This document shows positions 14,282 through 26,604 of a stretch of 38,732 nucleotides of DNA, piece after piece. Positions within the stretch are counted from its first letter, which is position 1, and each line of letters opens with the position of its first letter. Position numbers and translations under genes: made by a program. The stretch spans positions 1-38,732 of the forward strand of contig CACWZA010000027.1 in NCBI GenBank assembly GCA_902765215.1, given 5' to 3'. Under the pieces are notes generated by a model. That model searched no databases, was not told the DNA's origin, and saw nothing but the letters and a program-made list of their open reading frames with translations. This DNA is from an uncultured bacterium (GTDB taxonomy: Bacteria > Cyanobacteriota > Vampirovibrionia > Gastranaerophilales > Gastranaerophilaceae).

Positions 14282-14329
14282 AAGTTCCGTTGGATATTCC
14301 AATGACAATTGAATAAGTTTAAAACAGAT

Positions 14330-14403
14330 GGCAAGGTAGCTCAGTTGGTGAGAGCGCACGGCTCATACCCGTGAGGTCGAGAGTTCGAATCTCTCCCTTG
14401 CTA
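14330..14403 (+). tRNA. tRNA-Met (CAT), elongator type
   Basis: A full cloverleaf. The acceptor strand GGCAAGG pairs with CCTTGCT (one G-U end pair). The D arm contains AGCTCAGTTGGTGAGAGC, the anticodon stem CACGG/CCGTG encloses CTCATAC, and the T arm is GAGAG-TTCGAAT-CTCTC. Discriminator A; CCA is not encoded. The closed G1-pair and the anticodon-arm sequence fit elongator Met rather than initiator; tRNA-Ile2 (lysidine-modified CAT) is a less likely alternative. A hairpin terminator follows at once. Its 3' part is copied several times downstream. Confidence 0.96.
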
Positions 14404-14441
14404 ATAAAAAAGAGATAGATTTTTCTATCTCTTTTTTATTT
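14388..14441 (+). repeat. 54-bp direct repeat, left copy (tRNA-Met 3' end + terminator)
   Basis: The last 16 bases of tRNA-Met and the complete terminator up to 14441 recur in the same orientation at 26489-26543 with a single one-base indel. A direct repeat of a tRNA 3' end flanking a block of DNA is the classical footprint of site-specific integration, so this may be an attL. Confidence 0.85.
14404..14438 (+). terminator. Terminator of tRNA-Met
   Basis: AAAAAAGAGATAGA (14406-14419) and TCTATCTCTTTTTT (14424-14437) form a perfect 14-bp stem around TTTT. The same hairpin is repeated at about 26507-26540. Confidence 0.93.
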
Positions 14442-14543
14442 GTAACGGGTATGATGAGAACTCTGTTTAGAGTTCGAGCGACCTGTGAGCAGAGTGCGAA
14501 GGTCTTTTCTTTAGAAGAAACGAAGTTTCTGAAAAGAAAAACC

Positions 14544-14585
14544 ACTCTGCCGAATAAAACAATTAGCTATTGTTTTATGAGAGGT
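14544..14585 (-). repeat. Hairpin mini-element, copy 1 (reversed)
   Basis: Read on the minus strand it starts ACCTCTCA, continues with ATAAAACAAT paired to ATTGTTTTAT, and ends TTCGGCAGAGT. This matches the consensus CCTCTCA-hairpin-(G)TTCGGCAGAGT of the other copies. Confidence 0.75.
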
Positions 14586-14672
14586 AAATGTTTAACGCGA
14601 ACAGGTCAAGACCAAGACAATCTCTCCCTTGCTATTTTTGTTTGCCTCACACATTATCAACAGAGTTCGAAT

Positions 14673-14714
14673 CCCTCTCACAAGACAATAATTAATTGTC
14701 TTGTTCGGCAGAGT
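14673..14714 (+). repeat. Hairpin mini-element, copy 2
   Basis: CCCTCTC, then ACAAGACAAT/ATTGTCTTGT with loop AATTA, then TCGGCAGAGT. It interrupts a tRNA-Met 3' end: GAGTTCGAATC lies before it and CTTGCTATTTTTGTTT after it, and the uninterrupted version of these flanks exists at 14827-14855. Confidence 0.78.
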
Positions 14715-14767
14715 CTTGCTATTTTTGTTTATTTACCTCACGAGTAATCGCCGCCCGCTGCACGGCT

Positions 14768-14812
14768 CCCCTCTCTCTAAAACGATACTTAATCGTTTTA
14801 GTTCGGCAGTGT
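14768..14812 (+). repeat. Hairpin mini-element, copy 3
   Basis: CCCTCTCTC, then TAAAACGAT/ATCGTTTTA, then GTTCGGCAGTGT. It sits exactly between GCACGGCTC and CCGTGAGGTCG, the two strands of the tRNA-Met anticodon arm, as if inserted in the anticodon loop. Confidence 0.78.
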
Positions 14813-14847
14813 CCGTGAGGTCGAGAGTTCGAATCTCTCCCTTGCTA
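14813..14847 (+). pseudogene. Duplicated 3' half of tRNA-Met
   Basis: 35 bases identical to 14369-14403 of the intact tRNA: the anticodon 3' strand, variable loop, T arm and acceptor 3' strand. The 5' half is missing, so it cannot make a tRNA. It is followed by ATTTTTGTTTGCCTCA instead of the terminator. Confidence 0.9.
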
Positions 14848-14886
14848 TTTTTGTTTGCCTCAGCACATTATTAACCGAGTTCGAAT

Positions 14887-14928
14887 CCCTCTCACAAGAC
14901 AATAATTAATTGTCTTGTTCGGCAGAGT
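14887..14928 (+). repeat. Hairpin mini-element, copy 4
   Basis: Identical in its hairpin to copy 2 (ACAAGACAAT/ATTGTCTTGT) and in the same tRNA-3'-end context, as expected from the tandem duplication of the 210-bp unit. Confidence 0.78.
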
Positions 14929-14978
14929 CTTGCTATTTTTGTTTGCCTCACGAGTAATCGCCGTTCGCTGCACGGCTC

Positions 14979-15022
14979 CCCTCTCACAAAAACGATACTT
15001 AATCGTTTTTGTTCGGCAGAGT
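14979..15022 (+). repeat. Hairpin mini-element, copy 5
   Basis: CCTCTCAC, then AAAAACGAT/ATCGTTTTT, then GTTCGGCAGAGT. Like copy 3 it lies between GCACGGCTC and CCGTGAGGTCG. The hairpin arms differ from copy 3 at positions that are matched on both sides, so the pairing is kept. Confidence 0.78.
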
Positions 15023-15060
15023 CCGTGAGGTCGCGAGTTCGAGCCTCGTCGTTCCCGCCA
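15023..15060 (+). pseudogene. 3' half of a second tRNA with encoded CCA
   Basis: CCGTGAGGTCG, then T arm GCGAG-TTCGAGC-CTCGT, then acceptor strand CGTTCCC, discriminator G and CCA. The sequence fits a tRNA 3' half whose acceptor 5' strand would read GGGAACG; no such 5' half is present. Unlike tRNA-Met at 14330, CCA is encoded, which suggests a different (possibly phage or foreign) source. A terminator follows at 15151. Confidence 0.65.
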
Positions 15061-26442: not shown

Positions 26443-26505
26443 TTATTGTTTTATGAGAGGTAAATGTTTAACGCGAACAGGTCAAGACAATCTCTCCCTT
26501 GCTAA
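26443..26505 (+). repeat. Second copy of the 14568-14635 composite repeat
   Basis: From about 26446 on, the sequence matches 14571-14635: half a reversed mini-element (TTGTTTTATGAGAGGT), GTTTAACGCGAACAGGTC, and the tRNA-Met 3' end. The only notable change is a missing 6-bp repeat (AAGACC) in this copy. At 14635 the tRNA end runs into ATTTTTG; here it runs into the real tRNA-Met terminator. Confidence 0.88.
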
Positions 26506-26565: not shown

Positions 26566-26604
26566 CCTCTCACAAACGATACTTAATCGTTTGCTCGGCA
26601 GAGT
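26566..26604 (+). repeat. Hairpin mini-element, copy 6
   Basis: CCTCTCA, then CAAACGAT-ACTT-AATCGTTTG, then CTCGGCAGAGT. It is the shortest full copy and lies just outside the right direct repeat. The rest of the region, 26605-26727, shows no gene I can support. Confidence 0.75.

Follow-up and report, generated by a model that had tools for sequence, protein, structure and literature searches.

In the window analyzed here, that is, the whole 38,732-nucleotide stretch, which is the entire contig C27 of a 2.15-Mb genome (97% complete, 47 contigs), we consider it moderately probable that the region at the tRNA-Met gene is an array of RtT-like repeats carrying inserts from a small set of palindromic modules, one of which, the hairpin F4, is spreading or being exchanged as a folded DNA strand. 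Every unit would derive from the end of the tRNA itself, copied in part and with one arm opened, the loop of that arm being swapped for an insert from the module set; F4 is the shortest of these modules. Longer units also have, beside the opened arm, that arm copied in inverted orientation, and so fold as a three-way junction. The modules are common to different tRNA genes and to both tRNA and non-tRNA palindromes, and their stems stay paired while the sequence changes. The reading that suits F4 best is that of a DNA hairpin module that can be exchanged or is mobile. What is new relative to the RtT repeats of E. coli is that the arrays are present at numerous tRNA genes and vary between species of the order Gastranaerophilales, a group of gut bacteria.

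Organization of the array at the tRNA-Met gene

Six F4 copies were detected in the window, as shown in Table 1, and the elements named in a first-pass annotation of this DNA, namely the intact tRNA-Met, its arm strands and the hairpins, were recovered at their places. The two strands of the anticodon arm, GCACGGCTC (14356-14364, 14760-14768 and 14970-14978) and CCGTGAGGTCG (14369-14379, 14813-14823 and 15023-15033), enclose F4 copies 3 and 5, where CTC is retained and ATAC is lost, indicating a replacement inside the anticodon loop; the location proposed earlier was right, and since loop bases are replaced, these are not clean insertions. Copies 2 and 4 stand after GAGTTCGAATC and before CTTGCTA, in place of TCTCC of the T-arm/acceptor strand, and uninterrupted AATCTCTCCCTTGCTA is present at 14388-14403, 14619-14634 and 14832-14847, so the same element does interrupt a tRNA 3′ end of which an uninterrupted version exists, again by replacing bases rather than by inserting cleanly. 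The first-pass annotation had overlooked the opposite-strand F4 at 14544-14584, the F4 at 26566-26604, the tRNA-Met 3′ end at 26489-26504 and the tRNA-Asp end of the last unit.

Table 1. Positions of the tRNA-Met gene, its fragments and the palindromic inserts in the window.
Feature	Position	Strand	Remarks
Intact tRNA-Met(CAT), source of the fragments	14329..14404	+	ARAGORN; Rfam RF00005, 72.6 bits
Terminator-like hairpin 3′ of tRNA-Met	14405..14441	+	Inverted repeat; a near-identical one follows the tRNA 3′ fragment 26489-26504
Inverted T-arm copy, small hairpin and direct T-arm 5′ half (GATGAGAACTC...GAGTTCGA)	14453..14477	+	RtT-like start of T-arm unit
Insert family F5 (GCGACCTGTGAGC...AACAGGTCAAGAC) with nested F4	14478..14612	+	
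F4 copy 1	14544..14584	+	Nested in F5, canonical orientation
tRNA-Met 3′ fragment from T-loop start	14619..14634	+	Closes the F5 unit
T-arm fragment GAGTTCGAATC / F4 copy 2 / CTTGCTA	14663..14721	+	
F4 copy 2	14674..14714	-	
Anticodon-arm unit: inverted copy (CACGAG..GCCG), GCACGGCTC, F4 copy 3, CCGTGAGGTCG... to tRNA-Met 3′ end	14739..14847	+	
F4 copy 3	14770..14812	-	In place of anticodon-loop ATAC
T-arm fragment interrupted by F4 copy 4	14877..14935	+	
F4 copy 4	14888..14928	-	
Second anticodon-arm unit with F4 copy 5	14949..15060	+	tRNA end reads as tRNA-Met/tRNA-Asp chimera
F4 copy 5	14980..15022	-	
Truncated F4/F5 end and tRNA-Met 3′ fragment	26447..26504	+	12 kb downstream
F4 copy 6	26566..26604	-	In dispersed CTCCCC-type palindrome without tRNA sequence

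A stretch of 98 bp (14515-14612) is 100% identical to C33:40847-40944 in the tRNA-Leu array, and this identity between the two arrays ends within a few bases of the T-loop junction. In the region 15023-15057, 35 of 35 bases are identical to C1:101355-101389 at the tRNA-Asp gene; the final unit thus closes with the 3′ end of tRNA-Asp and is a chimera of two tRNA genes. The tRNA-Met 3′ fragment at 26489-26504, together with a near-copy of the terminator, lies past adhE and hydrogenase-like genes, and the tRNA-Met array looks as if it had been split by insertion or rearrangement. The Rfam scan of the window returned only the tRNA above the gathering score, and that of 14 loci returned, beyond tRNA and RNase P, sub-threshold matches only. 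A sub-threshold whalefall-1 RNA match (34.4 bits, gathering score 37) lies on the minus strand of L070 (1429-1500), just upstream of tRNA-His.

Abundance and distribution of F4

F4 is a hairpin of 39-43 bp (typically about 41 bases) with the form ACTCTGCCGA-stem-GAGAGG; on the strand that starts with ACTCTGCC, it consists of ACTCTGCCGA, GAGAGG and, between the two, a stem of 9-12 bp closed by a short loop. The pattern ACTCTGCCGN{14,34}GAGAGG gave 26 matches in this genome versus none when read backwards, so the matches are not due to chance. At least 25 F4 copies were counted in the 2.15-Mb genome and the pattern was present in 59 of the 98 genomes searched, with the backwards control at zero in each, which agrees with the dispersed family suspected beforehand. 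Most members of the host's family carry it, as do some genomes in two other families of the order, and it is absent from all 17 genomes that belong to the class but not to the order. Of the 25 placed copies, 18 have a tRNA gene within 600 bp, where 2.4% would be expected (binomial p = 2e-24), and 17 are directly contiguous with 7 or more exact nucleotides of the nearby tRNA, bearing out the supposed preference for tRNA-derived sequence; other F4 copies sit in dispersed palindromes or are nested within another insert family. Relative to the tRNA, F4 was found on either strand. Its ends are identical across many genera, many different tRNAs and unrelated palindromes, an invariance that is in itself no evidence, the ends being fixed by the search pattern.

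Database loci with F4 come from records labelled Candidatus Gastranaerophilales, Melainabacteria or gut MAGs, and also from Fusobacterium sp. CAG:439, uncultured Acinetobacter RUG672 and Cyanobacteria bacterium SIG29, which are probably the same group under other labels. F4 was also located between structural (baseplate-like) genes in one tailed-phage contig (L206, IMGVR_UViG_3300011008_000426). A loose-pattern search of IMG/VR gave one convincing F4 among the 80 matches listed, two stricter F4 patterns gave no matches there, and BLAST against phages returned no matches. The plasmid BLAST returned a single plasmid-collection record, in which the only 34 matching bases are the tRNA-Asp end. At the ends of C19, C38 and C21 (L083, L084 and L085), a non-tRNA multi-hairpin repeat was observed, with the order CCCTCCCCCTATGTAAAGGGGGAG-F4-TAAGTTGTAGAAATC...GATTTCTTACAA.

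Repeats of tRNA fragments across the genome

The element had been described as a hairpin lying in tRNA fragments, which is correct, except that F4 forms a single module within a larger repeated unit, built from the tRNA's own ends copied in tandem and in inverted orientation. Fragments of the 3′ end were found downstream of their own tRNA at 18 of the 39 tRNA genes (26 copies) and fragments of the 5′ end upstream at 8 of the 39 (12 copies); about half of the genome's tRNA genes have such fragments. The reversed-sequence control gave none in this genome, and none was found at the 27 tRNA genes sampled from the F4-free relatives G064 and G085. The 3′ copies mostly begin in or just after the T loop, and the 5′ copies mostly halt at tRNA position 11-12 and resume at about position 16-17. 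Where F4 sits in these partial copies, it stands in place of 4-8 loop bases, in the D arm, the anticodon arm or the T arm. The inspected tRNA copies carry a palindromic insert, with at least five insert types other than F4.

Longer units contain the opened tRNA copy and an inverted copy of the same tRNA end without an insert, and with the two side by side the longer unit folds as a three-way junction; the inverted copy is absent from some short upstream units. The three-way-junction fold is common to E. coli RtT and the tRNA-Tyr, tRNA-Pro and tRNA-Lys units, and the minimum-energy fold of the tRNA-Glu unit is a different one. The pattern GATGAGAA...GTTCGA occurs at 4 sites in this genome, all of them at tRNA units. 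Units are mostly 90-250 bp long and gene-free, and L106 holds four tandem, near-identical 90-bp repeats. Downstream of tRNA-Pro(cgg), L429 carries tandem repeats of about 50 bp that end in GTCATCCCGAT, the tRNA 3′ end, without a hairpin module.

The genomes are draft MAGs in which several contigs end in arrays, so that the copy numbers given are lower bounds and assembly errors may affect the edges of the arrays. Seven contigs of this genome (G000 C15, C16, C19, C21, C22, C32 and C38) start or stop inside F4/tRNA or F4 palindrome repeats, and the assembly appears to break at F4/tRNA arrays. The flanks of tRNA genes and the ends of MAG contigs are accordingly places where annotation can be misled.

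Pairing and covariation of the F4 stems

Elements without a recognisable stem were filtered out, leaving 138 of 154 F4 elements. Their stems vary freely and yet covary nearly perfectly, with 123 two-sided versus 4 one-sided changes in two alignments, in line with the compensatory arms reported from the window. In alignment A2 (31 distinct 41-mers), 7 of the 10 inner pairs changed on both sides, with 63 two-sided versus 1 one-sided changes, and in alignment A3 (29 distinct 45-mers), 8 of the 12 pairs did so, with 60 versus 3. None of 500 shuffles reached so high a covariation score, and slid pairings collapse. On the ACTCTGCC strand of the 138 elements, the non-Watson-Crick positions are mostly G·A or A·G, often in tandem, plus one G·G position, and G·T pairs are rare, 19 being counted versus 7 A·C pairs. 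This mismatch pattern suggests that one strand folds, and that it does so as DNA more than as RNA, since G·U intermediates are normally more frequent in RNA helices. Clean pairs could also be expected from hairpin-templated correction. F4 thus offers a natural case of a hairpin that is kept paired during sequence drift, apparently at the DNA level. Folded as single-stranded DNA, copy 2 has a z-score of -3.4, copy 5 with its flanks has a folding z-score of -4.2, and those of full units vary from -4.2 to -0.2.

Occupied and empty sites

The earlier expectation that empty and occupied sites can be compared was borne out both within this genome and between species. Insert F5 lacks F4 in C33 at 44.5 kb, in C15 and in G001, and contains it in the window and in C33 at 40.8 kb; by alignment, the occupied form has lost about eight bases compared with the empty one. 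Upstream of tRNA-Pro(tgg), there are two F4 units here, one with a different stem in G001 and none in G004. tRNA-Pro(cgg) has several units here versus none upstream in G003, and at tRNA-Phe, F4 is present here, in G003 and in G004, and not at the G001 locus. Congeners therefore differ in the number and kind of insert at the same tRNA, and occupied and empty sites exist; with one genome per species, these are differences between species in which gain is not separable from loss. The gene neighbouring tRNA-Met in the window is not beside tRNA-Met in the congeners found, and no clean orthologous empty site was obtained there. A single local scrambling event, with copies confined to this place, no empty sites and no compensatory changes, does not describe these results.

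Of the mobile miniature element put forward earlier, the dispersal stands and ordinary transposition is not supported: bases are replaced, no target-site duplication was seen around F4 (occupied sites lose 4-8 bases), and no enzyme could be linked to it. No F4 transposition event was observed among these genomes, each of which represents one species.

Comparison with known repeats and palindromes

The closest likeness was found in E. coli, where the RtT repeats of tyrT/tyrV (Rfam RF00391) comprise three tandem units of about 178 bp, each ending in the tRNA-Tyr 3′ end. Their order is an inverted T-arm/acceptor (GGGGAAGGAT), the junction GATGAGAA, a small hairpin, GGTTCGA, a palindromic insert, and AATCC... 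of tRNA-Tyr, and they fold as a three-way junction. The Gastranaerophilales tRNA-Tyr, tRNA-Pro and tRNA-Lys units fold likewise, and the T-arm units of this order have the RtT-like form GGTGGATGAGAACC...GGTTCGA-insert-AATCCACC. In the Gastranaerophilales tRNA-Tyr unit, the element order and the junction GGATGAGAA...GGTTCGA are as in E. coli RtT, and in both the outer stem is made of the tRNA end and its inverted copy. However, the insert sequences differ, roughly half of the tRNA genes of this genome are affected instead of one locus, D-arm and anticodon-arm versions exist, a common F4 module with variable stems is present, and the arrays vary between species of one genus. The RtT covariance model had no match in this genome at E ≤ 10, so the likeness is one of architecture and not of sequence membership. 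The first-pass view that no named family has this structure is consequently half right, the architecture being that of the tyrT RtT repeats and the RtT model remaining unmatched.

Of 5,426 E. coli genomes, 4,680 contain RtT. Its description as a repeat derived from a tRNA, with an rtT RNA, dates back decades, and we know of no accepted origin for these tandem units that follow tRNA-Tyr in E. coli. With this architecture found at numerous tRNA genes throughout a bacterial family, and differing inserts at the same gene in sister species, that origin becomes testable by comparison.

Other small palindromes resemble F4 in part. REP/RAYT palindromes are likewise short, dispersed and extragenic; F4, unlike them, has no conserved stem sequence, no GTAG foot and no RAYT link. 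Integron attC sites share conserved ends, a variable paired middle and a bulged, strand-asymmetric hairpin, an analogy only, for the units, unlike integron cassettes, are mostly gene-free and no integron integrase accompanies them. As for an insertion sequence or MITE, empty orthologous or paralogous sites were found here, and target-site duplications were not. Mitochondrial GC clusters and double-hairpin elements, which are thought to move without an enzyme of their own, are also small palindromes and are set beside F4 by description, although their hosts and those of F4 are unrelated organisms. Topical literature searches found no description of these tRNA-fragment/F4 repeats. In the parts consulted of PMC9897764, tRNA fragments are treated only as integration or CRISPR debris.

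Possible origins of the repeats

A functional structured RNA, in which the units would be transcribed together with the tRNA and selection would act on F4 as an interchangeable RNA hairpin, along the lines put forward for E. coli rtT RNA, seems rather unlikely to us. The layout is the same as that of the RtT sRNA locus, the units lie in likely leaders and trailers and fold stably, and the recurring tandem G·A motif is also at home in RNA; however, there are hardly any G·U intermediates (4 one-sided versus 123 two-sided changes), F4 occurs in both orientations with respect to the tRNA and also turns up in palindromes other than tRNA-derived ones and in a phage, its presence at a given tRNA varies among congeners, and the genome holds no match to the RtT covariance model. 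We hold it to be improbable that nothing moves at all, i.e., that replication slippage and template switching at tRNA hairpins duplicate or invert tRNA ends while quasi-palindrome correction keeps the arms perfect. Tandem near-identical units such as those of L106, the inverted tRNA copies and the arms with Watson-Crick pairs only would all follow from it, but F4 with the same ends recurs across many genera, beside many different tRNAs and within unrelated palindromes, and local scrambling cannot supply an insert common to all these sites.

That the arrays are scars of site-specific integration, attL/attR remnants of tRNA-using tyrosine-recombinase elements accreted in tandem, is highly improbable, even though the 3′ fragments start in the T loop, a classical attachment sublocation in tRNA genes, and two island-type integrases lie beside tRNA genes. 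Most units are short (90-250 bp) and free of genes, att sites do not usually involve D-arm copies or 5′ copies upstream, none of the integrases could be tied to F4, and a covarying hairpin is not what att cores predict. REP elements moved by RAYT, a Y1 transposase, are largely refuted and retain hardly any probability: Y1 transposases were found in 21 of 58 genomes searched, this one included, but RAYT genes are flanked by their own GTAG palindromes and not by F4, and the F4-rich G016 and G027 yielded no Y1 transposase.

F4 would spread or be exchanged as one folded strand of DNA, the one reading ACTCTGCC...GAGAGG, by a route that may be replication template switching at hairpins or a structure-recognising host recombinase. 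The arms of the tRNA would act as hairpins on single-stranded DNA and would be favoured because they are hairpins; the tRNA end would be duplicated and its loop exchanged for a module. Only events that leave one intact tRNA would survive, so that debris would pile up as tandem flanking copies outside the gene. Within an array, copy number can rise by tandem duplication alone. A broader version, which we offer tentatively as possible rather than probable, is that one strand of DNA, once folded, is recognised by its shape (conserved ends, a bulge and any paired stem) and enters hairpin loops, chiefly those of tRNA-gene copies, genome-wide in Gastranaerophilales and by a form of recombination with no element-encoded enzyme, and that E. 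coli RtT is a relic of the same process.

Candidate enzymes

Four tyrosine recombinases were detected in the genome, two of them XerC/XerD-like and two ordinary island-type integrases. An integron was rejected, as none of the four PF00589 proteins reached the TIGR02249 integron-integrase cut-off. RAYT was likewise rejected as the mover of F4, given its own GTAG REPs and its poor co-occurrence with F4. Among the genome's tyrosine recombinases and the RAYTs examined, no transposase or recombinase could be linked to F4. The loci L128-L139 contain RAYT-type Y1 transposase genes, many of which have their own GTAG palindromes (e.g., GTAGTAGGGTGCGATGTTTCGCACC), with the palindrome sequence differing from gene to gene.
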